Below are positions 20,702 to 36,162 of a DNA stretch of 64,000 nt, piece after piece. The stretch comes from Collimonas arenae (GTDB lineage Bacteria; Pseudomonadota; Gammaproteobacteria; Burkholderiales; Burkholderiaceae_D), in the NCBI RefSeq assembly GCF_001584165.1, contig NZ_CP013233.1, positions 4,348,620 through 4,412,619 of the forward strand, read 5' to 3'. How positions within the stretch are numbered: the first letter of the stretch is position 1; the number at the start of each line of letters is the position of its first letter. Position numbers and translations under genes: made by a program. The notes below the pieces were generated by a model, which worked only from the letters and a program-made list of their open reading frames with translations, did not search any database and was not told the DNA's origin.

Positions 20702-22765
20702 ATGCTTTCCTTGAAGCTACAAAACCCAAATGCCCGATTCGTTCTTATTGTTGATGAACTCGATCAACACTTCAATCTTTCACTAAAGAATTTTTCTTGG
20801 CTAAACACGGCTGATCTTCAAGCCTTGTTAGAGCCTGTGACAGATTGGCTGAATGGCAAGGCCACGACGACCCAAAGACAGGTCCTTATTAAGTTCTGTG
20901 CGTTAGGAAAAGCCTTAAGCGGTCTTGGGATTAGCGAACTCCCACGGGACGAGGAAGGCTGGCAAGGCCTCATCTTCAGCGCCTTTTCCTTATGGTTCGA
21001 AAGAGATACGAGCGCAAAGCTTGAAAACACTGCCAGGGATTGGAACAGCGCGCACCTCAAGATATTCGAGCTGCTCAGGGATGCAACTGATCTCATACCG
21101 ATTGGGGTCCTCATCCCCCGTGCATCAAAAAACTTGGCTTACGATATTCCTACACATGGAAGTGACCTTATCGGCTCACAACCACTGGTACAAACTGGCC
21201 GTGCTGATCAAACGATCGTCACCTTAGATCTCGAACGCAGCGATACCGAGTATCTCGATGAAATTCGACAACGACTGACTCGCCTTACTTCTGTTCTGGA
21301 GCGTTGCTGCCTCGAATGGTGGGAGCAGATTGAAAAGCACTTCCGTTACGGGCAAGCACTGATAGCGAAGGCTAATTGGGAGGCGATTGACGACCGGATT
21401 TCCAGGGGGGATATCTATGACGTCGCACCAAATGTACGCAACCCAAGGGGGGGATCACATAAGCATTTTCTCAAAGGTGACACCGAAGAGAGCTTTGGCG
21501 ACCTACTTCTTGTACTGACCAAGAAACATGGGCGCCACTTCATCCGTGAAATGTGCGATAGGAATAGGCACCTTCCGTCTCACAAGTCCATCACTATCCC
21601 GCACTGCGCTCCTGAAGTTACCACTCCTCTGACACACAGGAGCGAGAGAATCAATTGGATGCTCGGCAATTTGTCCCCCACTGACTATATGATGGCAGCG
21701 GTATTGTTGACCATCTATCAGCCGAAATTCACACCACATGCGCTCGCCGCAGCCAAACTGGCTGATAAAAATAACCGCCCCTATTTGGAATCCGGAGATT
21801 TAGGCTTTTCTCTAAGGATTGATAAAAAGAGGGTGCATACGATTAAGGATGGCCATTTAAATCAGAAGTGCTTGGACATTCTAAATTTAATACTTGAGAT
21901 GACTACGTCATCGCGAGCAGCGCTTCGCGATAAAGCTAGTCCCTACGCAAACAGTTTCTTTTTGGTTGGAGCCGGCGACGATGTCCGGCAACCACTAAAT
22001 GATGCTCGATTTCTTTCCAAGCGCTCAGGCCCCTCCGGTCTTCCAGATCGCTGGATTGGCGATTTATTTCCGATTCTGGTCGAGGAAGGCGTGACCGCCG
22101 GCATGCTTACTTTGAGGAAAATCAGAACAACTCAAGGAGTGCTGGAATGGTTCGATACCCGCTCCATCGAAAAAATGGCCCGAAAACTTGGAAACTCAAC
22201 TAGTGTTTCCATAACTCATTATTTGCCGCGATCTCTTGTTGAAGCGTGGTACACCCGCCAAATCCGTCAGTTTCAAAACATATGGCTAGCGACAAGCGCC
22301 GCAGGTGAATCATATCTATTGCACGTTACGGACTTCAGCACATTGCCAGCGCTTCATCGGTTTCTACTCAGAATAACCGATCTTTGCCCAGACGGATCCT
22401 CGCCACTTGCTAATGAGCTCCACAAGCGACTTGTCATTAAGAACGACGCCGGGGAGGCTCAACGCATAGGTGACTCACTCGCTATTGCGGCGTCTAAAGA
22501 AAGCTTTCTTTCGCTGTACCTATATAAAGAAGCTGCTCTTTCGAGTACTTCGTCGCACAGCTCCCTATCTGCCGTGGACCAATCAGCCGGCATGTCCCCA
22601 AATGACATCATCATGCTTTCAGATTTGGTGAAAGCAAGAGCTGAAGAAGACAAGAATCCCAAAATCCGAAAAGCGCATTTTGACGCGCTCGCCGAACTCC
22701 CTCTTGCTCGGCTCTCGACAAATTGGGGCGACCTTTTCGCGAAATGGGATCAGAACCATGCATAA
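20702..22765 (+). CDS. Large island protein, probable divergent tyrosine recombinase
   Basis: This 687-residue protein of lower-GC codon use is the first of four overlapping genes. No catalytic set is fully clear. The C-terminal third has RKIRTTQGVLEWFDTRS, then KMARKLGNSTSVSITHYLP, which resembles the distal HxxR/GH...Y end of a tyrosine recombinase in degenerate form (LGNS for LGHS). The N-terminal two thirds are unrecognised. Context supports a recombination role: it starts 118 bp inside the island end and its stop overlaps the next recombinase gene by eight bases. It might be an accessory recombinase or a target-site factor. Confidence 0.6.
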   Translation: MLSLKLQNPNARFVLIVDELDQHFNLSLKNFSWLNTADLQALLEPVTDWLNGKATTTQRQVLIKFCALGKALSGLGISELPRDEEGWQGLIFSAFSLWFERDTSAKLENTARDWNSAHLKIFELLRDATDLIPIGVLIPRASKNLAYDIPTHGSDLIGSQPLVQTGRADQTIVTLDLERSDTEYLDEIRQRLTRLTSVLERCCLEWWEQIEKHFRYGQALIAKANWEAIDDRISRGDIYDVAPNVRNPRGGSHKHFLKGDTEESFGDLLLVLTKKHGRHFIREMCDRNRHLPSHKSITIPHCAPEVTTPLTHRSERINWMLGNLSPTDYMMAAVLLTIYQPKFTPHALAAAKLADKNNRPYLESGDLGFSLRIDKKRVHTIKDGHLNQKCLDILNLILEMTTSSRAALRDKASPYANSFFLVGAGDDVRQPLNDARFLSKRSGPSGLPDRWIGDLFPILVEEGVTAGMLTLRKIRTTQGVLEWFDTRSIEKMARKLGNSTSVSITHYLPRSLVEAWYTRQIRQFQNIWLATSAAGESYLLHVTDFSTLPALHRFLLRITDLCPDGSSPLANELHKRLVIKNDAGEAQRIGDSLAIAASKESFLSLYLYKEAALSSTSSHSSLSAVDQSAGMSPNDIIMLSDLVKARAEEDKNPKIRKAHFDALAELPLARLSTNWGDLFAKWDQNHA

Positions 22766-24971
22766 AAACCATGCTCAAAGCGTCGATACGGCCAGAGCGA
22801 AGGCTATCTCCTGCTACATTGCCAATGCTTTCTCCCAGGTACAACCATACAAGGGGCCTTATACAGCACCTTGGCTATTGAGCTCTTTCGATTCAAACGT
22901 GTGGCTAATCAAAGTCCCAGGTTCCTATTGCGACAGCTCTGGAGAGTGGAAAGGCTTAAAAAAACTGACATGGGATATTTTGCTGGACGACGAAAGCAAG
23001 CTGACCGACTCCGCTAATCTGCTCATGTTCCGAGCCACTAAGTCCGTTCTCTTTCTATCCATAATCGTATCGAATGGCGATCTATCTCCAAAAATGATTC
23101 CCGATATATGGACCGAGTTCAGCAGGATCGTGAAATGGCTATATTTGCATCGAGAGATATATCAGCCGAGTACATACGCGTTTGCAAGAGTTGACGCAAA
23201 TGCGGTTCAATCCTTTATCGCCGATTTCGTTATTCACGGTACAGGTGGTACGCTCAACTATTATGAGAAAATCCTTAAACCGATCTACCAGCAGACTCCA
23301 GAGCTGACTTGGTCGCCAGACCTATTGCAAGACCCCTATCGTCTGCCAAAAAAAGACTCCGAACTCATTGTGAGATGGTTCGAACAGCAAAATTTCTACA
23401 CATGTCGCGTGCACCGTCAGCACGAAAAAAAAACCGAGGTGATTGATCGAGCGCTGATAGCGAAAGCTATCGGAGTTGACTTCAGCAGCTTAAACTCGGA
23501 GAAAATGACTGCGTTCTTTAGGCAATTCGAACCAAGCATGCTTCGCGTAAACCCATCTCTGCTTATTCCCGTTAACAGTGGAGACACTGAATATTACTCA
23601 CACAATGTTCGTCTTATCGACGACGTAATCAACACTCCCAGCAGCGTCACTGCCAGCTTGGCGATGCTTCACAACTGGGAGAGGCTGTTCCGACTTCACC
23701 ATCATCTCCCGGATCAGCTCCCCTCATCGACAGACTCTAAATATGGTCGCCTCCAGAAGGAAATACTAAGCGCCACGGCATCCTCTGGCTCAACACCTTG
23801 GATTCCCCTGCCGGTAGCGTTGAAATATACAAACGAGGCTCTCAGGTTAGTCGTCGTGCACGGTATGTCGATTGCAAAGTTCTACATCAAATCGCTTAAG
23901 TACTTCAAAGAGAACGACCTTCTCAGCGAGGACTCAGATGGGACTACCAGGAGTTTAACCAAGTTAAAAAAGCGCGATAAGTACATTGCCAACAACGTTC
24001 CAGAAGATCTTATGTCCCTAAATATTTCAGACTGGGCCACGCACTGGCGTGCGATCCACAAAGATCCTTGGGAATCACTGAGAACCGCACCCTCGGTGAC
24101 AGACCTTTTGCAGGTCTTAGTCGGAGCCATCTCACTCCTCACGTCGATATTGAAACCAATGCGGCGTGGCGAATTCCCGAGTCTTCGTAATGACTGTCTC
24201 TACTTTAGACAAAATGACGGCTACTACTTACGTCAGCGCCGAGGAAAGAAGGGTGTACTACATCGGCTTGTAGAAGATTCGCGACCGATACCTCGTGTTG
24301 TCGCACTTGGCATAGAAATACTCAAATACCTCGGCGATGAGTTGAAACAGATAGCGGAGGAAAAGGATCCCCACAGTCTTGAAGCACTGATTTACCTTAT
24401 TTCGCCAAAATCAAACAGATCAGCCAAACCAGGGACTGTTAGCGAAAAATTCATTATCACCGCTTTAGATCGCTTTTGTGATTGGGGTAACGATCCACCA
24501 GATAAATATGGGCGTCGATGGTACTACCGGCCTCATGAGGGCCGTAAAACATTCCTCATATCATTTTTCTGGTGCTACAAATACGCCAGTCTCGGTGCGG
24601 CCAGTTGGATGGCAAACCATTCATCATGGAGAGAAACGTTGAACTATATTAGCTCGGCATTCCCAGGAGACGAGCTGCCAGAATTCGAAGCACAATATGC
24701 AGCTGAGCAACTGTGGCAGTTTGAAAAGTATGGGGAAAGTGAAGTGACTAACGTAAGGGATCTCTACAGATTGGTTTGCCGCCACTTCAATGTGGCAAAA
24801 ATCGATCTCATCCCGGAGGCCGATCTTAAATTCTGGTTGAAGGAAGCCTACCTCGACGAAACGTACGAAATTATGCCGATTGTTATTGGAAACAAGCGCA
24901 ACGATAGCCGTATCACCGTGGCCGTTCGCATCAAGCAGGAGCGCACTCATGAGCCTAGACGCAAACCATAG
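22758..24971 (+). CDS. Large tyrosine recombinase/integrase-like protein
   Basis: The start chosen is the ATG at 22758 (MHKNHAQSVDTARAK), which overlaps the previous stop; this gives 737 residues. A distant tyrosine-recombinase core is readable near the C-terminus. It comprises the first arginine in KPMRRGEFPSLRND (about R470), H-x-x-R in YRPHEGRKTFL (H593, R596), and NHSSWRETLNYI with H621 and the candidate nucleophile Y630. The first 450 residues are unrecognised. Size and position resemble the GmtZ-type integrase of Gamma-Mobile-Trio islands, but this is from memory and needs a profile search. Confidence 0.7.
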   Translation: MHKNHAQSVDTARAKAISCYIANAFSQVQPYKGPYTAPWLLSSFDSNVWLIKVPGSYCDSSGEWKGLKKLTWDILLDDESKLTDSANLLMFRATKSVLFLSIIVSNGDLSPKMIPDIWTEFSRIVKWLYLHREIYQPSTYAFARVDANAVQSFIADFVIHGTGGTLNYYEKILKPIYQQTPELTWSPDLLQDPYRLPKKDSELIVRWFEQQNFYTCRVHRQHEKKTEVIDRALIAKAIGVDFSSLNSEKMTAFFRQFEPSMLRVNPSLLIPVNSGDTEYYSHNVRLIDDVINTPSSVTASLAMLHNWERLFRLHHHLPDQLPSSTDSKYGRLQKEILSATASSGSTPWIPLPVALKYTNEALRLVVVHGMSIAKFYIKSLKYFKENDLLSEDSDGTTRSLTKLKKRDKYIANNVPEDLMSLNISDWATHWRAIHKDPWESLRTAPSVTDLLQVLVGAISLLTSILKPMRRGEFPSLRNDCLYFRQNDGYYLRQRRGKKGVLHRLVEDSRPIPRVVALGIEILKYLGDELKQIAEEKDPHSLEALIYLISPKSNRSAKPGTVSEKFIITALDRFCDWGNDPPDKYGRRWYYRPHEGRKTFLISFFWCYKYASLGAASWMANHSSWRETLNYISSAFPGDELPEFEAQYAAEQLWQFEKYGESEVTNVRDLYRLVCRHFNVAKIDLIPEADLKFWLKEAYLDETYEIMPIVIGNKRNDSRITVAVRIKQERTHEPRRKP

Positions 24972-25461
24972 TGATGCACGTATCACACGAAATGACGAAC
25001 AGTTCGAATACCGGCTTGATTTACTTCGGACGATTACAGTGGAAAACTACACTGGAAAAATTCATGCGGAAGCTTGGAGGAACCAGGCCACTTTAGCTGC
25101 TCTTGATCTTCCAGAAAAGCAGATTCATCCGGTTAGTCTAAACACTCTGAAGGCCGCAGCTAGCCGCAAAGAAGGCAATGCTTGGGCTGAAATTGAGGAA
25201 TTGAGAAAGAAAGCGAACGCTCTAGGGCGAAATGGGAATTCCAATTCAAAGAAGAAAAATACGCCACCAAAAAATCTTCAAGAAGACTTGGACCTGTCAT
25301 TTCGATCACGTGCAATTATCTATCGCGCTTATTCAGATCTACTCTCTCTGTCATTGTCGTTCGCAACCAACGACGATGGTTTTTCTGAAAAACTGAGACA
25401 GCACAAAGCCAAATTTGAACAAGACCTCGGCTTGCTGATGGTGGCGAAAAATGCACCCTAA
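24949..25461 (+). CDS. Small protein of the recombinase module (GmtX-like position)
   Basis: 170 residues from the ATG at 24949 (MSLDANHSDARITRNDEQ), overlapping the previous gene by 23 bases. It is mostly helical and charged, with a Lys/Asn-rich linker (NSNSKKKNTPPKN) near the middle. No enzymatic motif is seen. Small helical proteins between two recombinases occur in several multi-recombinase modules and may bind DNA or bridge the recombinases. An equivalence to GmtX is inference from order and size only. Confidence 0.6.
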   Translation: MSLDANHSDARITRNDEQFEYRLDLLRTITVENYTGKIHAEAWRNQATLAALDLPEKQIHPVSLNTLKAAASRKEGNAWAEIEELRKKANALGRNGNSNSKKKNTPPKNLQEDLDLSFRSRAIIYRAYSDLLSLSLSFATNDDGFSEKLRQHKAKFEQDLGLLMVAKNAP

Positions 25462-26887
25462 TGCCCAACTTTTCAGAGTTGTGAAATCGGTTCGACTGCC
25501 AAGCCACTATAGCCTCAATTCAGATTCCGTTCGCCACGAGATAAAAACCCTTATGTCATTCTGCTGGCCCAACGGAGCTCCGTGTATACCCGTTGAGCTG
25601 TTCCTCCTAGACCGAAGCTATGAGCTGACGGTCCGCGACATAGACGGAGGATCTTTAAAGCCATTGTCATCGCATCTGAGTCATCTCGCACGTTACTGCT
25701 ACGCAAACTCGATTCAATTTTGGGACCTTGACGATAATAGTTTCAAGGATTTCGTCTGTGAATTTCTAGTAAATCAGACGCGATCCAGCCGCGGCTTCAC
25801 CCAGCGAAAAAACACCACCAACGGCAACATAGTTGCGACCTGCATCTCGTTTCTTACTTGGCTCCAGGCCAATCTCATCACCGACCGTGTATTGGTTGGG
25901 CCACGCAACACCAATCCACAAATCCGATTAATAGAGAAGAGAAGAAAATCTCGTTACGGGACATCCAGTGTTCTCGTCTATCCATTCTCTCCGATCGACG
26001 ACACGCCGGAACCCAAGGGGCCCATGTCCGATGCGATAAGGAACAAGCTGTGGGCGGCCAACAGTTCATCTGACAATTCAAACACCGGCATTTATCTTCA
26101 AGCTCGGAGAGAGCAACTATTGGCGCTACTAGAAGCGACCGGCTCTCGTCCAGCCGAATTAGCACACATGCTCTTAGAAGACAATAAGACTAGCGTAAAG
26201 GAAGGAGCCCTCTTTCTTCCCACCAAAAAGCGCCGCAAGCTGAAAGACCCAACTAAGCGAGTTCCAGCAACATTGGAAATCACGATTGGCTTTAAGCGCT
26301 ATATAGAAGTTGAGCGCGCACAACTAGTCCAGCATCTCAGAGCGCAGGGGAAGCAACCCGATACTCGGCACGTATTCATTACATCCGACCACGGAAAACC
26401 TCTCACGGAATGGGCGATAACAAAGGATTTCCAAAGGCTGGTCATCCGGGCGGGGGTGGATGAGCGCGCGTGCATGAGTATGTTGCGGCATCGCTTCGTC
26501 ACAATACTGGTGGCATTGCATCTGCAAGACTATGTCGAGAACAACGGCATTACTTCGAAGAAGCAGCTTATCATGGTGGATCAGATCACCATTCTCACCC
26601 GTGTTGCTACCATTACAGGTCACGCTGACCCATTGAGTTTATTGCCGTATATCGATTTGGGCTGGGATTATCTGGGCGTATTCAAACCGATTGAGAAAGC
26701 CAGTCAGATCGCAAGATTTATCAATGAAAGTGCGGTCCATGTGCGAACACTAGGGAAAATCGCGCGCACTAAGACGAGCATTACAAAAGCTGAATTAGTG
26801 GCGTCGGTGGCCACGCAGCTCGACGAACTAGAAGCGCGGATTCGTAGGCTCTTAGAGAACCCAGAGCCTTCAGCTGACAAGCTATAA
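25451..26887 (+). CDS. Tyrosine recombinase (phage integrase family)
   Basis: This 478-residue protein overlaps the preceding stop by 11 bases. Catalytic elements are clear: LEATGSRPAELAHMLLED with R233, MLRHRFVTILVAL with H347/R348, and ITGHADPLSLLPYIDLGW with G390-H391 and the nucleophile Y400. A SAM-like N-terminal DNA-binding segment (SSHLSHLARYCYANSIQFWDL) precedes. It would cut and rejoin DNA at the island ends. This is the most canonical recombinase of the module and the best candidate for the main integrase. Confidence 0.85.
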   Translation: MHPNAQLFRVVKSVRLPSHYSLNSDSVRHEIKTLMSFCWPNGAPCIPVELFLLDRSYELTVRDIDGGSLKPLSSHLSHLARYCYANSIQFWDLDDNSFKDFVCEFLVNQTRSSRGFTQRKNTTNGNIVATCISFLTWLQANLITDRVLVGPRNTNPQIRLIEKRRKSRYGTSSVLVYPFSPIDDTPEPKGPMSDAIRNKLWAANSSSDNSNTGIYLQARREQLLALLEATGSRPAELAHMLLEDNKTSVKEGALFLPTKKRRKLKDPTKRVPATLEITIGFKRYIEVERAQLVQHLRAQGKQPDTRHVFITSDHGKPLTEWAITKDFQRLVIRAGVDERACMSMLRHRFVTILVALHLQDYVENNGITSKKQLIMVDQITILTRVATITGHADPLSLLPYIDLGWDYLGVFKPIEKASQIARFINESAVHVRTLGKIARTKTSITKAELVASVATQLDELEARIRRLLENPEPSADKL

Positions 26888-27978: not shown

Positions 27979-28890
27979 CTAATTAGCGTATCCAGATTGA
28001 CTTCCGGCGTCCGTATCAATTGGAGGCGATCCATCTTGTGGAGTGATAGCCGCTTTTTTCAACGCCCTATCGTTAGGAGTGCACGGTAACACCTTGAACC
28101 TGGAAGGTATAGTGACTTCTCCAAGGGAGGCTGTTCCCTTTAGAAAATCTTCGAACGATTCGTCGATTTCTAATTTTTGGTCAATCAAGAGTTTATTTTG
28201 ATCGTTTCCAAAAAATAAGTAACTTTCGGTACTCGAGGAATCAATACAATATGCCTTGCTATTGAAGTCCAAATAGTGCGCGAGCTTATAGGCTTTCACT
28301 TTGATTTGATCATCACCCAAAGCCTTGTGGGTGATCCACCAATAGCTGCCAGCACTGAACAACGCTGCGACAATGAAGATGACCGAGCCCCAAGGAAAGC
28401 TGTAGAAATCCTCTTCCTTCGTGGCTACCCATATGGCAACGATATGTGCCAATGAAAAGAATGCCAGTATGAAGAGTACGGGGGTGCACATTTTCATAAA
28501 AAATGCAGCAGATAGCAATGCTCTTGCGAATGGTAAATTCGAACTGTCAACACCAAAAATTCCGTTGAGCAAAGTACTAGCCTGTGCACTAGAATAAACA
28601 ACGGCAGCTGAGAATAAAAAGGCGCATAGTAATTTAACGGAGTTGTACTTCAACATCTGAGTGACGGTGGAACTCTTTTCAATCGATGCTGCAACAAACA
28701 TGACCGTCAATACTGTCCCGAATACAAAAACAAAATAAGACACCGAATTCCACCACGTGATGTCGCTCGAAGCCTGTGAAGACATCAGAACTAGAAACAA
28801 TCCTAAGCCACCACACGTCCATAAAGAGATTGCTTCTGCGCTGGATCGCATCTTGTGCCGTCGTTCCTCTGCCCATCGGCTATCAGACAT
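27979..28890 (-). CDS. Unknown five-helix membrane protein
   Basis: This 303-residue protein is not recognised. It has hydrophobic segments around residues 30-38, 50-68, 85-105, 135-155 and 168-185, then a soluble C-terminal domain of about 115 residues with YCIDSSSTESYLFFGND. The helix count and the C-terminal domain suggest an inner-membrane protein, possibly sensing or effector-like. It lies on the same strand behind the MBL, E2-E1-JAB and patatin genes and could be the last member of that unit. It overlaps the upstream 85-codon frame by 88 bases, so a frameshift joining them cannot be excluded. Confidence 0.6.
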   Translation of the reverse strand: MSDSRWAEERRHKMRSSAEAISLWTCGGLGLFLVLMSSQASSDITWWNSVSYFVFVFGTVLTVMFVAASIEKSSTVTQMLKYNSVKLLCAFLFSAAVVYSSAQASTLLNGIFGVDSSNLPFARALLSAAFFMKMCTPVLFILAFFSLAHIVAIWVATKEEDFYSFPWGSVIFIVAALFSAGSYWWITHKALGDDQIKVKAYKLAHYLDFNSKAYCIDSSSTESYLFFGNDQNKLLIDQKLEIDESFEDFLKGTASLGEVTIPSRFKVLPCTPNDRALKKAAITPQDGSPPIDTDAGSQSGYAN

Positions 28891-29060
28891 ATGTTCTTGT
28901 ATTGCATGCAGATAGCCTTTAATGGTTCGTTCAGAAGAACGTCGATCTTTGTCATTGGGACAATACTCAGCTCCTCATAGATTGCCGATACGGTCTCTTC
29001 AGGCGTACGAGGTTTTGTGTATCTAAACTTTCTAGATTCAATTTCATCTTCAATTAACAT
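28803..29060 (-). CDS. Small hypothetical protein upstream of the membrane gene
   Basis: Eighty-five residues starting MLIEDEIESRKFRYTKPRTPEE. The first 60 residues look like a soluble helical peptide (ETVSAIYEELSIVPMTKIDVLL). The last 25 lie in a different frame over the start of the membrane protein and look less protein-like. It starts 91 bp after the patatin stop. It is either a short gene with a long overlap or the true N-terminus of the 303-residue protein separated by a frameshift near 28890. Confidence 0.45.
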   Translation of the reverse strand: MLIEDEIESRKFRYTKPRTPEETVSAIYEELSIVPMTKIDVLLNEPLKAICMQYKNICLIADGQRNDGTRCDPAQKQSLYGRVVA

Positions 29061-29151: not shown

Positions 29152-30246
29152 CTAGACAGCGACTGGGATAACATCCTGATGAAACATCGGCTCGGTACAG
29201 GCGACGTCATAGCCATGAGTTGCAATAGCATCAAATTCGTCTATGGTCGTTCGTCGTAAGGTCGTTGGAAAGCCAGCCGCAAATGCGGCCGATATGCAGT
29301 TCGCTGCCTCGCCGGCAGGCTTACAAATAGGTAGATACGCCCCGTTACCACCTGCTTGCCGCAAATAATTATGGAACGTGCGAACTCTGAGGGAATGAGC
29401 TTGATCGGCCATGATGTCCGCTATTCGTTTCAGGCGCCAGGGATTGAGCGCCAATGCGGAGAATCCTGATCTCAGTGGTGCGCCTGCATCGAACACAATA
29501 ATGGCTTCGCCGTCAATTTTTGAAATGCCTTTCCCTGCATCCAAGAATGGCTCCAAACCTAAGTTGTCGTATACGCCACCATCATAAAGATGCAATGAGT
29601 TGAACGGCGTGTTGACCGACTGCGCAGCCTCCGCAGACGCTTCCCAGGTGGGGCGTTTGCGCCAATTGAATTTTGTCGCGTTAAGCGTCAGTGGTCCAAA
29701 ACCACCGGGGAATGCAGCCGATACCGCCAGTGCTTTCGCCAGTGGAAATGTGTTGGTGGATGCGTACCCTAGGCAATAGTCTCCCATCGAGTCATGCTTG
29801 AACCGAAATCGCTTTCCCGTTTCTGCGGTGGTACCATTAATTGACCATTCCGGCAGCGCCGGAATATCTGACAGTTTTGCTGTGACGTCCCATTCCTTTT
29901 GTAACGCGAGCGCGAGCAGATTCGCGCGCGACAGAAAGAAACGCAAATTCCATGGTTTTATGAGTTGTCGCAGCGCTCCCCATTGCAAGCTGCGACTGCA
30001 GATTTTTCTGCGAAGAGCAGGGTAAATCGTGAATAGAAATTTTTCCGAAGAGGGCCATTGCATATCGGATTCTTGAAATATTAAACCGACTAATAAACTG
30101 CCTCCAGAGACCGTCGAGATCCGCCGCACATCTTCCAAGCGTCCCTTTTCGGCCAAGTGGCGAAGTGCCCCCATATGAAAAATCATAGCACGCACTCCGC
30201 CGCCGGAGAGGGCAAGTGCCAGGTAGCGGTTACTTGATGGATTCAT
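29152..30246 (-). CDS. Patatin-like phospholipase
   Basis: A 364-residue patatin-fold lipid acyl hydrolase. The oxyanion hole is LSGGGVRAM (residues 13-21). The nucleophile elbow is STVSGGS with S47, and here the usual first glycine of GxSxG is replaced. The catalytic aspartate is in LYDGGVYDNLG (D222). LAVSAAFPGGFGP near residue 175 is also typical. In CBASS the patatin CapV is the membrane-degrading effector. Here the ATG overlaps the stop of the E2-E1-JAB gene (ATGA at 30243-30246), so the two are made together. The inferred role is a membrane-attacking effector under control of the conjugation protein. Confidence 0.88.
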   Translation of the reverse strand: MNPSSNRYLALALSGGGVRAMIFHMGALRHLAEKGRLEDVRRISTVSGGSLLVGLIFQESDMQWPSSEKFLFTIYPALRRKICSRSLQWGALRQLIKPWNLRFFLSRANLLALALQKEWDVTAKLSDIPALPEWSINGTTAETGKRFRFKHDSMGDYCLGYASTNTFPLAKALAVSAAFPGGFGPLTLNATKFNWRKRPTWEASAEAAQSVNTPFNSLHLYDGGVYDNLGLEPFLDAGKGISKIDGEAIIVFDAGAPLRSGFSALALNPWRLKRIADIMADQAHSLRVRTFHNYLRQAGGNGAYLPICKPAGEAANCISAAFAAGFPTTLRRTTIDEFDAIATHGYDVACTEPMFHQDVIPVAV

Positions 30247-32504
30247 TTTTCCGCTGTCCCTTGCAGTACCGTTATGTCGTCCTCGCCAATAATCATGGAC
30301 ACTGCCGGCAATCCATCTTCAGCCATCCCCAACGCCAAGTAGGTCAATTGAATAAGATCGTCACCGCTAGGATTGGCGGAATGTCCAGGAGGATGACTAT
30401 GCCATTCACCGAGGTATCGGACTATCCCAGAGGTTCGCCTCGATATCTCCGCGATGGCTTCCGGCAGACCGGCCGTTCCGCGGGTAAATGACGTCGGCGT
30501 GGACACACTATCTGCTGGCGCCGGAAGACCATCCACAATAACGGCCGCTTTCATATTCAGATCGTAATATCCGATTAAGACTCCACCGGTTTCATTGGGT
30601 GCATACAATTGTCTGAGATCGCGCAAGCGGGCAAAGACACCTTTATCGATATAAAGAGTTAGCTCACCAAACTGGTGAGCTACTTCTTGAAAAATGGGAA
30701 TTGCGTGTGCGACCACGGATCCCGTTGCGACGTCACGCGCCCACGCGCGAATCAATGCCTCTTGGCTTTGGCATGCGATCTGAACCTGATCCGCCAGATT
30801 GCCAGCATGCCCGAGCACTCGCGAGTACGGAAGCGCCATTGAGATATCCCGGCAACTGGCTCCACTCCAGTAAGTTCCCAAGTTTCCGTCGAGGTGATTG
30901 TTGCCCCAGGTTTCATGGATCAAGGCGCGATAGTATTGCGCCTCCAACGTGCGTAAGCGCATGCTGCGATCGGCATCCTCAGCCATTAATACTGCGGCGT
31001 TTCCGCTTGGCGTGAGAAATACTGACATATTCCTAGCAATCCCATCTACCGAGCTAGCTAGTCGTGGGTAGTCAAGGGCGGCAGATGCATCTATGATCAA
31101 CGACGTTGCTTTAAGCGAAGACGCTATTTGTTCGTTCTCCAAGTCGCATACATCGGCGCAAATCACCTTCAGTTCGCTGGCGCCGGCTGTGATCTCCCAG
31201 TGCATGTTACTGACGGCTTCTGTCTTTGTCAGTCCTATATGCCTGGTATCTGCCGTGTGTCGGACAAGATTGTGCGGTTTGATATGGTCCTGGTCGATGA
31301 CGGTCCATTTTCCCCATCCACTTCGCGTCCAAATATCTAATAACGCGCTGCCAATAGCACCGGCACCGACCAATACCGCTTCTGGTCCTGGTTCTGATAC
31401 GCCAGATTGTATGCGTGACTGCTCAGGGGAATTTTGATGCAGGACGCCCATCGAAAATAAGGGAAAATTTTTCCACTCAGCTGTCGGGCCGTCGTCACAC
31501 TTCCCCATAGCATCTTTGAAATATTGTCCGTCCAGTAGAAATAGCGCACCAACGGCTGCGCCCAATTTGAGTAAGCCAATATTGATTAAAAATGCGCGAT
31601 GCGATACGCGCTCAATTGGCCCACCTATCGCTCGAACTATTGGTACGAGCAACAAAATGACCACGAATTGTGAATCCGTCGTCGTCGCTTTCCCAATAAT
31701 CCCCACGCTTTCCTGAACTCGTTCGCGTAACAGCGTTAACATTTCAACGCCCCGTTCTGTCATGAGAGTAGTTAATTCTCCCAGCGTGGCTGGATCGTTT
31801 TCTACTTGACCATGTAGAATCGACGGCAGCGTCAGCTCGATAGGCTGTATCGCATTTCCTGGAATTCCTCCTCCTGCTAATGTGGGCTTCAAGAAAAATG
31901 TGATGCCACCATTCGCACGTTCAGGACTGCAGTGGATAAAATATTTCTGTTGCGACCGTCCTTCGGAGTTACTGAAATCCCACGGTAAAACCAACTCGTA
32001 GTTGGATACGAAGAACAACTGTTCCACGGCTTGATCTGTGGGATGTAATGTATCCAAGGCACTTTGCTGTAACCACCATTGAATTCGCGCCAAAAAATTC
32101 TGCGGCGTCCAGGTTCTTGCCACAGATACAGGGGGCTCAAAATAAAGACATAAGCTGGCGGGTGTCCCAATTCGGCCTTGATTCTGGTGAAGTATCCGAG
32201 GAAATTCTTTGCGTAGCGCGAGTACATTTACCAACTGCTTTTCATTCTCTGGCACACACAAGGCCAGGCGTTCGCGATACTTGATTCCATGACGATTTTT
32301 GGGCGTGACTCCATCGCACTCCACATCGACGACAATACACGCCAGCTTTGTCGTCGCGGAATCTACAGTGTTGAGTTGCTGCACAATTTTAAAATCGCGA
32401 TGCCGCTCAACTGCCTTTACAATCGCGTTGGCTCGATCTATCTCGAAAACACCGGGATAGGGCACTGCGACAACGTTAACCAAATCGTAGAAAAGCTCGT
32501 CCAT
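30243..32504 (-). CDS. E2-E1-JAB fusion protein (ubiquitin-like conjugation and deconjugation)
   Basis: This single chain of 753 residues carries three modules. Residues 1-175 look like a bacterial E2: GTPASLCLYFEPP with C119 as candidate active cysteine, then TWTPQNFLARIQWWLQ. Residues 370-600 are an E1/ThiF adenylating domain: VLVGAGAIGSALLD (GxGxxG at 380-385), VIDQDHIKPHNLVRH, and a candidate catalytic cysteine C551 in SGASCRDIS. Residues 615-753 are a JAB/JAMM peptidase: NETGGVLIGYYD (E638) and WHSHPPGHSANPSGDD (H702, H704, D715/D716). In type II CBASS these are separate proteins, Cap2 and Cap3. Triple fusions next to an MBL protein have been described by comparative genomics. It shares TAATG with the MBL gene upstream. 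Confidence 0.88.
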   Translation of the reverse strand: MDELFYDLVNVVAVPYPGVFEIDRANAIVKAVERHRDFKIVQQLNTVDSATTKLACIVVDVECDGVTPKNRHGIKYRERLALCVPENEKQLVNVLALRKEFPRILHQNQGRIGTPASLCLYFEPPVSVARTWTPQNFLARIQWWLQQSALDTLHPTDQAVEQLFFVSNYELVLPWDFSNSEGRSQQKYFIHCSPERANGGITFFLKPTLAGGGIPGNAIQPIELTLPSILHGQVENDPATLGELTTLMTERGVEMLTLLRERVQESVGIIGKATTTDSQFVVILLLVPIVRAIGGPIERVSHRAFLINIGLLKLGAAVGALFLLDGQYFKDAMGKCDDGPTAEWKNFPLFSMGVLHQNSPEQSRIQSGVSEPGPEAVLVGAGAIGSALLDIWTRSGWGKWTVIDQDHIKPHNLVRHTADTRHIGLTKTEAVSNMHWEITAGASELKVICADVCDLENEQIASSLKATSLIIDASAALDYPRLASSVDGIARNMSVFLTPSGNAAVLMAEDADRSMRLRTLEAQYYRALIHETWGNNHLDGNLGTYWSGASCRDISMALPYSRVLGHAGNLADQVQIACQSQEALIRAWARDVATGSVVAHAIPIFQEVAHQFGELTLYIDKGVFARLRDLRQLYAPNETGGVLIGYYDLNMKAAVIVDGLPAPADSVSTPTSFTRGTAGLPEAIAEISRRTSGIVRYLGEWHSHPPGHSANPSGDDLIQLTYLALGMAEDGLPAVSMIIGEDDITVLQGTAEK

Positions 32505-33706
32505 TAGTCCGCCTGTATTGGCGTGGACAAAATGATGATGGCGGCTTCTGCCGTCCCAGCGCGAGGAGGCCTAGATGCGATAATTGCAGGCGCACCTGAC
32601 AAGCTGGCTTTCTTCCACGTGACACCGCCGCTGGTTACGTCAAAGATAATCGGCGTAGGTTGATTGGCGTTCGGCTCTTCCATCGTTACGAGAAATTTCC
32701 TGCCATTTATTTGTTTCAAATACCGTTCGTATGCCTTTCTTGCCTGGATATGTGGTGGCTGGATTTCTTTGTACGCATCTTCAATATCGGTGACCGGGCG
32801 GCTGGAACTAACGATGTACGCATCCGCTTTACCTGCAAGCAGCAGCTCTTTCACCAACGGGTTTGGAATTGTTTCCCGCTCTCCTTTTTCATCACTCAAC
32901 GCAAGGTAACTACAATGATGAGGGATGTTGTACAGATCCCAGGCGAGCCTGTCATCGTTACCATGATATTTCGTTATGCGGACAATTTCCTCCAAGGCTT
33001 CCCATTCTGAATCCCCGACTTCGAGATAGTCAAAATGTTCGGTCCCGGCACGCAGTCTCACGTTAAAAATCAGAGAGGCCGTGTTACGGATAAAGTCGCC
33101 GTCGTCACAATGCTTGATGTAGGGCGAATGACAAAAAAATTCAACTTGATCGTTGTCCAATGTAAATCCGGGAACAAGCGTGCCGGCATCGACAAACAGA
33201 TGATCCCGCGCAGTCTCTGCCAAACCACGCTCTTTCAATTTAGGCCTTAGCCACTCCATCAGCGATTCTGGCTGCGAAAATACACGGATATTCTTACCCT
33301 CCAACAACCGGTGACGGGCCTCTTGTCGCCATAGGATGCACTCGTCTTGTTGGTCTTCATTAGTTCCTTCCTCTATCAGCATTGCGGCAGGCACCCACAA
33401 TTCCTCGATTTTGATGCGGCCCGATCCTTGATATTTCTTTGCATGTTGCAATTCAAAAAAATCGGTGCTGCCACAGATGTGATCAAGATCAGCATGCGTA
33501 AAAGCAACTACGTCGAGATAGTCGCGATTCGCCTCTTTCAGCTCACGCTTCAGGCGGGCGTTTAAATCAATTTCTGGCGTCTCTTCACCCTCGGCCTTCT
33601 GTATATGCCGAAAATCAAAAAGAATCCGTCGGCCGTTCGAAAGAATGACCTGACTGGTATCGCCATTACCTACCGGATAAAACACGACTTGATGTAATTC
33701 AAACAT
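32504..33706 (-). CDS. Metallo-beta-lactamase-fold hydrolase
   Basis: This 400-residue protein is first in the operon. Metal ligands are readable in FTHADLDHICGS (H71, D73, D75, H76), a variant of HxHxDH in which the second histidine is aspartate. Others are GDSEW (D232) and IPHHCSYL (H263/H264). NTASLIFNV near residue 208 resembles ComEC-type MBL domains. The C-terminal tail from about 340 is unrecognised. It may hydrolyse a nucleotide or nucleic acid. Its stop shares bases with the E2-E1-JAB start (TAATG), so expression is coupled. Association of MBL proteins with E2-E1-JAB fusions is known, but their role is not. Confidence 0.85.
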   Translation of the reverse strand: MFELHQVVFYPVGNGDTSQVILSNGRRILFDFRHIQKAEGEETPEIDLNARLKRELKEANRDYLDVVAFTHADLDHICGSTDFFELQHAKKYQGSGRIKIEELWVPAAMLIEEGTNEDQQDECILWRQEARHRLLEGKNIRVFSQPESLMEWLRPKLKERGLAETARDHLFVDAGTLVPGFTLDNDQVEFFCHSPYIKHCDDGDFIRNTASLIFNVRLRAGTEHFDYLEVGDSEWEALEEIVRITKYHGNDDRLAWDLYNIPHHCSYLALSDEKGERETIPNPLVKELLLAGKADAYIVSSSRPVTDIEDAYKEIQPPHIQARKAYERYLKQINGRKFLVTMEEPNANQPTPIIFDVTSGGVTWKKASLSGAPAIIASRPPRAGTAEAAIIILSTPIQAD

Positions 33707-33759
33707 CTTTCCATCCTTTCAAACGCCACTTGTGATTGAGTCACCGCTGTGGCATAGTC

Positions 33760-33777
33760 GGTGTCTGTATAAACAAC
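33760..33777. promoter_or_regulatory. Operator copy 1 in the divergent control region
   Basis: GGTGTCTGTATAAACAAC resembles the perfect palindrome at 33828-33845 in 14 of 18 positions. It lies 54 bp upstream of the MBL start. The pair is probably the binding site of the XRE protein encoded at 33885. Confidence 0.6.
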
Positions 33778-33827
33778 GTATTTTTATTTTTCATAGCTCT
33801 AATTGCATAGAATCAATTAAAACTTCC

Positions 33828-33845
33828 GTTGTCTGCATGGACAAC
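33828..33845. promoter_or_regulatory. Operator copy 2 in the divergent control region
   Basis: GTTGTCTGCATGGACAAC is a palindrome with six-base arms GTTGTC/GACAAC. It is 68 bp, centre to centre, from copy 1 and 40 bp before the XRE start, so it could serve autoregulation. Confidence 0.65.
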
Positions 33846-33884
33846 AGGCTAGTTTAGCTTTTCATTTTTGTCAAGGAGTTTTCT

Positions 33885-34262
33885 ATGCCGCAATCTGGAT
33901 TAGGCATATTGCTTCGTCAGCTTCGCGAAAATCGCGGATTGTCGTTGCGTGAAGTAGGTCAATTATCGTCAACGGATCATGCATACGTACACCGTCTGGA
34001 AACAGGGGAAAAGGAATCGCCCTCATCGGAGGTCTTTACCAAGCTCCTGCGAGTACTTAAGCCGACCGATCGGGAAAACGAGATCGCAAAATGGCTAGTC
34101 GATCATCCGGAAGCAGATCCCGAACTCGTGTTGTACACTTTGAAAGATGCAACAATCGATCCGGAGATTTTCATGGCCGCCGCTGGTGTTCGTCACCGCG
34201 GAACAGGCCGTCCCGATCCGGCCACACTCATTGCTCGTGTCAAACGCGCGTTTGAAGATTGA
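33885..34262 (+). CDS. XRE-family transcriptional regulator
   Basis: This 125-residue protein has an N-terminal helix-turn-helix, LRQLRENRGLSLREVGQLSSTDHAYVHRLETGEKE (residues 8-42). The C-terminal half is helical and may bind the partner protein. AGGAG precedes the ATG. It is divergent from the MBL-E2E1JAB-patatin operon, and its stop overlaps the ImmA/IrrE start. XRE plus ImmA/IrrE pairs are derepression switches in mobile elements: the protease removes the repressor after a trigger. That role is inferred here. Confidence 0.85.
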   Translation: MPQSGLGILLRQLRENRGLSLREVGQLSSTDHAYVHRLETGEKESPSSEVFTKLLRVLKPTDRENEIAKWLVDHPEADPELVLYTLKDATIDPEIFMAAAGVRHRGTGRPDPATLIARVKRAFED

Positions 34263-35137
34263 ATGATATGGATGAAGCCGATGTTCTTTGGAAAGCCAGA
34301 CAGTTTGTAGCATCGGTCGACACATCCAATATTCATGTTGACCTGAACGCATATGTTGATGCGGCCAAAGCAAAAGTTGGCTTTGAAGAACTCGAGGACG
34401 GGGAGTCCGGGTACACAATTAACGTGAAAGGCCAACCGCGAATCACGGTGAACTCACTTGAGACACCGGAGCGGCAACGCTTTACCATTTGTCATGAAAT
34501 TGCCCACATTGTGCTGGGGCTTGTTTCCCAACACGATGAAATTCCCTCCTGGGGCTACGCCAAACGCGATATCAACGAAACTTGGTGTGATGTATTTGCT
34601 GCTGAACTGTTGATGCCTTACGATATATTCAGGGCAAAGATTCGAGACGAGGGAGAACCTTCTGAAGAGTTGATTGAGTCTCTTGCTTCCGAATTTAGAA
34701 CGTCATTTCCCGCCGCAGGATCCCGATTTGCTGCCGTGACAGATTTGCCGTGCGCCTTTGTCACAATTGATCGCAGCATAATTCGATATGCGTCAAGATC
34801 TCTATCACTGCGCAAAATTGGCGCCTGGATTGCACCGAAATCGCCTGTTCCCACTGGTTCCGTTGCACATCGCCTGCGCGCTGATGAAGTCAATGGCAGC
34901 GCCACCCAAGAAGTGGCACAAGATATTTGGTTTAGCGACTGGGAGAAAGATCGCGATCTTTGGGAAATGTCACGGCACTATGCCCGCTTTGATCAAACTG
35001 TCTCGCTCCTCTGGTGCGACGAAGACGATATTTCAGATGTCGAAGTATCCCGGACTCGGCTCACTACCTATGAAAATGATGGACTGAGTGAATTGACCGG
35101 GGAACTGCCATGGCCAGGAAAGCGCAGCCGACGGTAA
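34259..35137 (+). CDS. ImmA/IrrE family metallopeptidase
   Basis: 292 residues from a TTG at 34259, or 289 from the ATG at 34268. The zinc motif is FTICHEIAHIVLGL (H79, E80, H83), followed by CDVFAAELLMPYDIF, the usual ImmA helix. The C-terminal 130 residues are an unrecognised domain. ImmA cleaves the repressor ImmR in ICEBs1, and IrrE cleaves DdrO in Deinococcus. Together with the preceding XRE gene it probably senses damage or infection and releases the cassette. Confidence 0.85.
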   Translation: MNDMDEADVLWKARQFVASVDTSNIHVDLNAYVDAAKAKVGFEELEDGESGYTINVKGQPRITVNSLETPERQRFTICHEIAHIVLGLVSQHDEIPSWGYAKRDINETWCDVFAAELLMPYDIFRAKIRDEGEPSEELIESLASEFRTSFPAAGSRFAAVTDLPCAFVTIDRSIIRYASRSLSLRKIGAWIAPKSPVPTGSVAHRLRADEVNGSATQEVAQDIWFSDWEKDRDLWEMSRHYARFDQTVSLLWCDEDDISDVEVSRTRLTTYENDGLSELTGELPWPGKRSRR

Positions 35138-35703: not shown

Positions 35704-36162
35704 ATGACAACCCTCCTTCAAATCGGTCAGAGCCTGCGCGCCGAGCGAGTGCACCAGAAGAAACACAAGACGAAATTGGCCAAAGCCAGCGGCGTTCACC
35801 GGAACACGCTTTCGGGGTTGGAAGCCGGCGTCACTAATGTCGAGATGAACACGTTGATTGCCCTTTGCGACCAACTTGGTTTAGACATCGTCCGGGTCAG
35901 AAAAGAAGTCGCAATTCTGAGAGTCTGCCACCGGCATGGTCGTAACTCAATTCTAATCACTGCAAATACTGGGCAGCGAGTGTCAACGTCCAGATTTTCG
36001 ATGTTAATTAACTACGGTTTAAATGTCAAATGTTGCAAACTCCATTTCTACTTTATGAATGCGGGCGAATTACCTGTTATATCTACGCAGAATTTTTCTT
36101 ATCTGTTAGCGTTTGAATTTTATCAATGTATTAACCGTGAAATAATCATGAAACTGTACTGA
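35704..36162 (+). CDS. HipB-like XRE regulator, probably truncated or frameshifted
   Basis: Residues 1-75 are a good XRE domain: LLQIGQSLRAERVHQKKHKT, then SGVHRNTLSGLEAGVTNVEM and LIALCDQLGLDIV. This resembles HipB antitoxins. Beyond about residue 80 (after EVAILR) the sequence no longer looks like the family and becomes rich in Asn, Phe and Tyr, which suggests a frameshift or truncation. No HipA kinase follows; the next gene is on the other strand. It is an orphan regulator or a remnant of a toxin-antitoxin pair. Confidence 0.6.
   Translation: MTTLLQIGQSLRAERVHQKKHKTKLAKASGVHRNTLSGLEAGVTNVEMNTLIALCDQLGLDIVRVRKEVAILRVCHRHGRNSILITANTGQRVSTSRFSMLINYGLNVKCCKLHFYFMNAGELPVISTQNFSYLLAFEFYQCINREIIMKLY

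Follow-up and report, generated by a model that had tools for sequence, protein, structure and literature searches.

A 6A-MBL operon of Collimonas arenae encodes a metallo-beta-lactamase with a near-invariant Arg-Ala-Gly tail, the probable substrate of its E2-E1-JAB protein

Introduction

Bil and Bub operons conjugate ubiquitin-like proteins of the beta-grasp fold that are encoded in the operons themselves. A different substrate was described for type II CBASS (cyclic oligonucleotide-based antiphage signalling system): the available text of Jenson et al. reports that Cap2 forms a thioester with the C-terminal glycine of cGAS and conjugates it to target lysines, and that Cap3 provides the cleavage. 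The same text finds the terminal Gly/Ala conserved across 1,583 cGAS C-termini taken from operons with Cap2 and Cap3, while other operons display no such conservation. Extracts on the B. cereus type II CBASS describe a cyclase joined to PspA via its C-terminal Ala331, and an excerpted 2025 review names Cap2 as the sole system of its type then known to have a non-beta-grasp substrate. A further arrangement appears in row 6a of Iyer et al. 2006 (PMC1779556): the accessible part describes a protein with the three modules E2, E1 and JAB that almost always adjoins a metallo-beta-lactamase (MBL). The term patatin occurs zero times in the main text of that article, and its accessible part mentions neither CapH/CapP nor a C-terminal glycine tail. 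Here we analyse an operon at positions 29152-35137 of a 64,000-nt stretch of Collimonas arenae NZ_CP013233.1, hereafter the window, which encodes an MBL, an E2-E1-JAB fusion and a patatin-like lipase next to a divergent pair of regulatory genes. An earlier reading of the DNA letters, made without database searches (the sequence-only reading), had proposed it to be a defence system in which the substrate of the E2-E1-JAB chain was unknown.

Results

The operon belongs to the 6A-MBL system and its active sites are intact

The three core and effector genes lie on the minus strand and are transcribed in the order MBL (32504-33706, 400 aa), E2-E1-JAB (30243-32504, 753 aa) and patatin (29152-30246, 364 aa), with the MBL stop and the E2-E1-JAB start sharing TAATG, and the E2-E1-JAB stop and the patatin start sharing ATGA. 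All five open reading frames (ORFs), including the two regulatory genes, were found where the sequence-only reading had placed them, and both overlaps were verified. The fusion scores 668.5 bits against the NCBIfam model NF058523 ('6A-MBL_cap2_3', cut-off 320); the MBL, which stays below threshold in Pfam, is clear in NCBIfam with 391.1 bits against NF058524 ('6A-MBL_enzyme', cut-off 220). Both models are described by NCBIfam as parts of an anti-phage 6A-MBL system. With the two core proteins of the same families, in the same order and far above the cut-offs, the window operon is by sequence a member of the named 6A-MBL system, which corresponds to operon type 6a in Iyer et al. 2006; the accessible part of that article contains the comparative-genomics precedent that the sequence-only reading had mentioned for E2-E1-JAB proteins beside MBLs. 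Beyond this core, the window has the patatin and CapH/CapP, and its MBL carries an extension of 16 residues.

In the 753 aa chain Pfam recognises Prok-E2_A (27-177), ThiF (377-474) and Prok-JAB (621-742). The E2 catalytic Cys119 (codon 32148-32150, minus strand), the GAGAIG motif, the candidate E1 catalytic Cys551 (codon 30852-30854, minus strand) and the JAB residues E638, H702 and H704 are all at the positions claimed before. These residues also withstood the conservation check: among 85 full-length E2-E1-JAB proteins, the window's included, not one differs at C119, C551, E638, H702 or H704, nor at S713 or D716.

The surroundings of the fusion were surveyed in 88 loci, namely 86 from E2-E1-JAB searches, one further locus of the same family (L002) and the window. 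Species genomes were searched with an alignment of 32 sequences and the best 80 of 447 stretches encoding a relative were retained; from viral contigs 10 loci were fetched and 6 used, L107-L110 being excluded as weak and partial. Two loci, L037 and L039, share one E protein sequence. In 80 of the 88 loci a core MBL ORF lies directly 5' of E2-E1-JAB, and the window's 4-base overlap is shared by 26 of the 39 patatin-bearing loci. Since the order of MBL, E2-E1-JAB and patatin and the 4-base overlap recur across the survey, the arrangement is more than chance. The linkage of MBL and triple protein was also seen in a separate sample of 369 genomes of the class, in which all five genomes with an MBL above the NF058524 cut-off also have the triple protein. 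The distribution is sporadic: of 60 genomes searched, 2 gave a match above the cut-off, the window's own and one other. Relatives of the system are present on plasmids. Among 126 scanned neighbours there were 13 integrases and 4 type I specificity genes.

One of the plasmid loci (L127) is on the E. coli plasmid pKMi029_1, a conjugative IncF plasmid that carries the 6A-MBL core together with a WYL regulator. Its MBL gene is found at a DNA identity of at least 80% in 29 of 5,426 complete E. coli genomes. As relatives thus reside on E. coli plasmids and chromosomes, the model developed below can be tested in laboratory E. coli.

The MBL tail carries a near-invariant Arg-Ala-Gly motif

In the metal motif of the MBL, HADLDH (residues 71-76, 33479-33496, minus strand), H71, D73, D75 and H76 are the same in all 78 core MBLs that were aligned. 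In the AlphaFold2 (AF2) model residues 1-367 form a confident core except for two loops, followed by a disordered tail (368-400) with a predicted local distance difference test (pLDDT) value below 50. The top PDB match in Foldseek is the beta-lactamase-like domain of ComEC (9ic4, E 7.7e-15, template-modelling score 0.64 on the target and 0.45 on the query), and the next are phosphorylcholine esterase and PNGM-1. MBL-fold proteins frequently act on phosphodiesters.

Within the disordered tail, Arg382-Ala383-Gly384 (RAG; 32555-32563, minus strand) stands out, followed in the window by 16 further residues (32507-32554). Of 80 core MBLs, taken from 79 loci and the window, 78 carry the motif within their final 25 residues; it forms the exact end in 56 and is followed by 2-16 extra residues in 22. 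Over 78 aligned MBLs the mean entropy is 0.13 bits for residues 382-384 vs 2.30 for residues 360-380, and Gly384 is invariant in a 60-row alignment that reaches down to 24% identity. Likewise, in the best 120 of 1,840 database homologues, the window's own protein among them, all 120 have RAG and 117 end exactly with it; the extended proteins are that of the window, P0250, with an extension of the same length, and P0343. The plasmid relatives conform, with PRAG followed by VINQ in E. coli and PPRAG in Polaromonas. The new observation of this work is the near-invariant RAG at or near the end of the disordered tail in the MBL, which is the only partner to accompany E2-E1-JAB almost always. In the accessible text of Jenson et al. 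the residues before the terminal Gly/Ala of cGAS vary.

A RAG end was absent from the other protein families of the loci that were compared, namely E2-E1-JAB (88 proteins), accessory MBLs (41), patatins (40), WYL (18) and CapP (10). The motif lies within the last 25 residues of 1 of 6 TM152 proteins, and in 120 database patatins it is never terminal and occurs once within the last 30 residues. We also considered that RAG might be an artefact of a ribosome-binding site for the overlapping downstream start; this was rejected, as across 78 loci the motif is encoded by 46 different codon triplets that use all six Arg codons, so the amino acids and not a ribosome-binding site are conserved. Of the five MBLs above the cut-off in the class sample, three carry RAG, those of the window, G259 and G230 (HGY after RAG). 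Its lack in the other two indicates that RAG is a motif of the main clade, and that the feature shared more generally is a Gly at the C-terminal end or close to it.

Four MBL tails (L042, L046, L034 and L051) have two tandem RAG motifs (e.g. PPRAGLESRPLRAG), which looks like a repeat of the tail.

The tail points to the MBL as the probable conjugated protein

The MBL displays at its C terminus the pattern seen in cGAS, next to the same kinds of enzymes, and it is therefore the simplest candidate for the substrate of E1 and E2. By sequence and by analogy with type II CBASS, the MBL is probably what E2-E1-JAB conjugates, with Gly384 as the proposed E1 acceptor; in the window the 16 residues that follow would probably be trimmed first, by the JAB domain, and extensions occur in other core MBLs as well. 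The gene content and the conserved tail suggest that the ubiquitin-like enzymes attach a metal-dependent hydrolase, and not a small ubiquitin-like protein, to other molecules. A substrate that the sequence-only reading had to leave blank now has a strong candidate. No ubiquitin-like domain was detected by Pfam in the 10 window ORFs scanned.

Two other families were considered as E1 substrates. The patatin was rejected, its C-termini being variable and without a RAG end in either the locus or the database set. The accessory MBLs are RAG-less and were rejected as well, though less firmly for their MBL2-type subgroup in view of the lone terminal Gly discussed below.

We found no paper that describes an MBL as a conjugation substrate, in a search that left preprints and most subscription papers outside and could have missed the source of the NCBIfam name. 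The literature searched also contained nothing on what the E2-E1-JAB proteins of the 6a operons, listed since 2006, act on. If the MBL is indeed conjugated, it would be a second kind of modifier without the ubiquitin fold, after the CD-NTase (cGAS/DncV-like nucleotidyltransferase), and its tail would name both a substrate for 6a E2-E1-JAB proteins and a residue to mutate. A mass-spectrometry signature would follow, since trypsin, cutting after Arg382, would leave the target lysine with an Ala-Gly remnant, the counterpart of the Gly-Gly known from ubiquitin.

The third gene encodes an exchangeable and mostly membrane-directed partner

The window patatin matches Pfam PF01734 with 67.8 bits and has a candidate Ser47/Asp222 dyad with a GGG oxyanion loop; S47, G48, G49 and D222 are invariant in 27 aligned sequences, window included, in which the C-terminus is without conservation. 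Its five AF2 models vary in confidence, from a mean pLDDT of 81 in the best to 58 in the worst. The modelled fold is similar to that of potato patatin, of PlpD and of CapV and CapE, two lipases of CBASS, with a match to AbCapV (9kej) at E 4.3e-8. No match was obtained in PADLOC or by sequence in the PDB, and the link to CapV is one of fold only.

Downstream partners were counted within about 2.5 kb of E2-E1-JAB, and transmembrane (TM) segments with a simple hydropathy script. A patatin occupies the slot in 39 of the 88 loci and a multi-TM protein in 30, one locus having both; 2 loci have a calcineurin-like phosphoesterase, and 18 have no member of these three groups. The constant trio of MBL, E2-E1-JAB and patatin expected by the sequence-only reading is thus not borne out. 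The representative TM protein (L044) matches the PADLOC candidate PDC-M48A. On a tree of 85 E2-E1-JAB proteins, on which L002 is a very long branch, both the patatin and the TM label change 11 times by gain or loss, at least 7 and at least 10 of these changes, respectively, being forced by well-supported branches, and both labels are more clustered than shuffled ones. As patatin and multi-TM proteins alternate in the third slot, the lipase would be an exchangeable effector and MBL plus E2-E1-JAB the core; as judged from these sequences, the effectors that fill the third place are exchangeable and for the most part directed at the membrane.

In one locus (L124:5469-9005) patatin and E2-E1-JAB form a natural fusion of 1178 aa, beside a divergent MBL. 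The swapping in the slot, this fusion and the fold shared with CapV and CapE all support the earlier view of the lipase as a probable effector in an operon built like a defence system.

Other partners were also seen. An accessory MBL lies downstream in 25 of the 88 loci, its representative (L022) matching the PADLOC candidate PDC-M48B. At L100:11959-12972 a TIR-domain protein (TIR_2, 92 bits) is the second gene 3' of the 6A core, behind a TM protein.

A CD-NTase is missing from the locus

The absence of a CD-NTase, asserted before from the ORFs at hand, was confirmed by a search of the window's whole genome with PF18144, which gave no match; this search covers that one family of CD-NTases. None was found either among the window ORFs scanned with Pfam, PADLOC and NCBIfam. 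PF18144 was also searched in 50 of the 80 locus-bearing genomes: 40 had no match, and 10 had a best match that lay outside the fetched 6A locus (for G452 the comparison with L052 covered the best match, beside two further ones, C2 and C223), so homologues do not stand consistently beside a CD-NTase. The scan of 126 of 173 unlabelled neighbours with Pfam and PADLOC shows the 25 commonest families only, and a lone CD-NTase could therefore escape it. The missing CD-NTase looks like a property of the 6A system.

The relation to type II CBASS proposed by the sequence-only reading is supported. Both systems have E2-E1 and JAB activities, predicted ones in the window, a patatin-type effector and control by CapH/CapP. 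In each, a C-terminal Gly is conserved in one enzyme, the CD-NTase in CBASS and in the 6A system the MBL, whose role as the conjugate is probable. They differ in that the window has an MBL hydrolase in the position of the cyclase, and in that Cap2 and Cap3 are separate proteins there whereas E2, E1 and JAB form one chain here. With Bil and Bub, as far as the accessible texts describe them, the 6A operons share a prokaryotic ubiquitin-like cascade and exchangeable DNA-damage controllers, and the lack of a ubiquitin-like domain in the 10 window ORFs scanned with Pfam sets the window apart.

A CapH/CapP-type pair diverges from the operon

The divergent genes on the plus strand encode an XRE repressor of 125 aa (33885-34262; PADLOC capH, 51.7 bits over residues 1-125; Pfam HTH_31) and an ImmA/IrrE metallopeptidase of 292 aa when started at a TTG (34259-35137; PADLOC capP, 207.5 bits; Pfam Peptidase_M78). 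The peptidase has the zinc motif HEIAH at residue 79, and its nearest solved structure by sequence is CapP (7t5t, E 3.3e-15). By these matches the pair is a CapH/CapP-type controller, facing a 6A-MBL immune operon instead of a CBASS operon. The overlap of the two genes noted earlier holds with TTG 34259 as the start, but gives way to a short gap with the in-frame ATG 34268. In the divergent promoter region two 19-nt direct repeats (33759-33777 and 33827-33845) are 79% identical, the second holding the palindrome GTTGTC-N6-GACAAC; they look like operators, though so short a two-copy repeat can be chance.

According to the accessible part of a 2026 EMBO J paper, single-stranded DNA (ssDNA) activates CapP, CapP cleaves CapH, and the pair occurs with CBASS and Bub operons. 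The sequence-only reading had proposed that repressor cleavage replaces a nucleotide signal. This is unsupported, as CapH/CapP is a transcriptional controller described, in the texts available, also with cyclase-bearing CBASS operons, and it is the divergent regulator in only 7 of the 88 loci; 17 have a WYL protein instead (representative L081, Pfam WYL), and weaker or more distant CapP-like hits in L036, L041, L052, L063 and L094 are outside the 7.

Discussion

A model for conjugation of the MBL and its alternatives

The family membership, the intact active sites and the near-invariant RAG at or near the end of a disordered MBL tail, all read from sequence, argue for a 6A-MBL defence operon under CapH/CapP control, in which E1 and E2 conjugate the MBL and the lipase is an exchangeable effector, and we consider this reading probable. 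DNA damage or ssDNA made by a phage would activate CapP, CapH would be cleaved and expression of the operon would rise. The JAB domain would trim the 16 residues of the window MBL to expose Gly384, which E1 would adenylate; E2 would then join the whole MBL to target lysines or other nucleophiles, as Cap2 does with the CD-NTase, and JAB could reverse the conjugation. The conjugated hydrolase, nuclease or phosphodiesterase-like, would be primed or localised and, by some further step, turn on a membrane-attacking effector, here the patatin lipase, whose attack on the membrane would stop phage spread at the cost of the cell, with no CD-NTase-type cyclic-nucleotide synthase involved. We give about even chances to the wider proposal that a ComEC-type metallo-hydrolase is the ubiquitin-like modifier of 6A systems, in some of them as a pro-protein trimmed by JAB, and that it is this attachment, in place of a cyclic nucleotide, that turns on the interchangeable membrane effectors.

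Several observations weigh against this model. The window MBL, being one of 3 in the best 120 with an extension, needs processing before its glycine could be used. The core MBLs of L053 and L002 end in KLG and HGAS, those of G324 and G239 in the class sample end in TYG and GSGFQ, and 14 of 24 MBL2-type accessory MBLs end in a lone Gly without RAG. A core MBL ORF is missing in 8 of the 88 loci: in L059, L061, L099, L104 and L105 the locus is truncated or runs into a contig end, in L078 it is broken, and L032 is without any core MBL ORF; what remains of the MBL in L059 and L078 terminates in PRAG. E2-E1-JAB homologues at L122:5284-7770 and L123:5170-7539 have no MBL in the 13 kb fetched. The 88 loci, picked by likeness to the window's E2-E1-JAB, lean to its clade, and the anti-phage label comes from the NCBIfam name, a literature search for '6A-MBL' having returned no paper. 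Finally, the step from MBL to lipase could still involve a small molecule.

In the eighth locus without a core MBL ORF (L025:2300-2660), a PPRAG* remnant stands alone 5' of E2-E1-JAB, and the preceding gene is, by eye, acetate-kinase-like; the locus may well be an assembly join. In L032 an apparent fusion of MBL and E2-E1-JAB was rejected, the extra N-terminal sequence being an unrelated open frame.

The exceptions to RAG and the two MBL-less homologues bear on the idea that E2-E1-JAB conjugates something else, such as a ThiS/MoaD-type beta-grasp protein of the host or an unrecognised small protein, and that RAG serves docking, localisation or turnover. The neighbour survey covered ORFs of at least 60 aa, which leaves room for a small unrecognised partner. 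This idea is nevertheless unlikely, because the MBL is the most constant neighbour family in the 88 loci, Pfam found no ubiquitin-like domain in the 10 window ORFs scanned, and the RAG tail is limited to the E1-adjacent MBL and absent from the accessory ones, the same pattern having marked cGAS in type II CBASS according to the part of that work available. A nucleotide signal is a possible though doubtful explanation: an unrecognised enzyme, perhaps the MBL itself given the phosphodiester action common in its fold, would make or release a nucleotide that activates the patatin, in a CBASS with another signal source. The resemblance of the patatin model to CapV with 3',3'-cGAMP and to CapE with cUA agrees with this, against which stands the lack of a PF18144 CD-NTase in the window's genome and in 40 of the 50 locus-bearing genomes searched; the patatin, matching no PADLOC or PDB sequence model, does not allow a nucleotide site to be called either way.

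The MBL could also be a toxic nuclease effector whose conjugation aims or restrains it, the patatin being an accessory. Its ComEC-type fold and invariant metal motif would suit such a role, as would the 18 loci in which no patatin, TM protein or calcineurin-like enzyme was seen 3' of the fusion. We regard it as rather unlikely in view of the membrane-type partner, patatin or multi-TM, that is present in 68 of the 88 loci and was swapped many times, and of the patatin fused to E2-E1-JAB in L124; moreover, some of the 18 have a TM protein upstream (L076, L077, L081-L083, L091 and L103). A general DNA-damage response module, mobile by chance and not devoted to defence, appears quite improbable. 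CapH/CapP does respond to DNA damage, and in the accessible literature phage protection by the related Bub operons is not demonstrated, but NCBIfam gives the family an anti-phage name, and the sporadic distribution, the plasmids and the integrases and type I specificity genes in the neighbourhood speak for an immune role.

Neighbouring genes in the window

The borders of the island were sought by flank searches in 15 genomes of the genus, including its own, which gave no clean empty site. On the strand of the patatin and 91 bases after it are two ORFs, of 303 aa (27979-28890, about five hydrophobic segments) and 85 aa (28803-29060), without a family match in the Pfam, PADLOC and NCBIfam scans; the 303 aa protein could be an additional membrane component. 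A second XRE-type ORF (35704-36162; HTH_3, 38 bits) lies 3' of the CapP gene. Further away, at 20702-26887 on the plus strand, four overlapping ORFs encode proteins of 687, 763, 193 and 478 aa; the first three matched no Pfam model and the last matches Phage_integrase, and the four may together form a multi-gene recombinase module responsible for moving the island.

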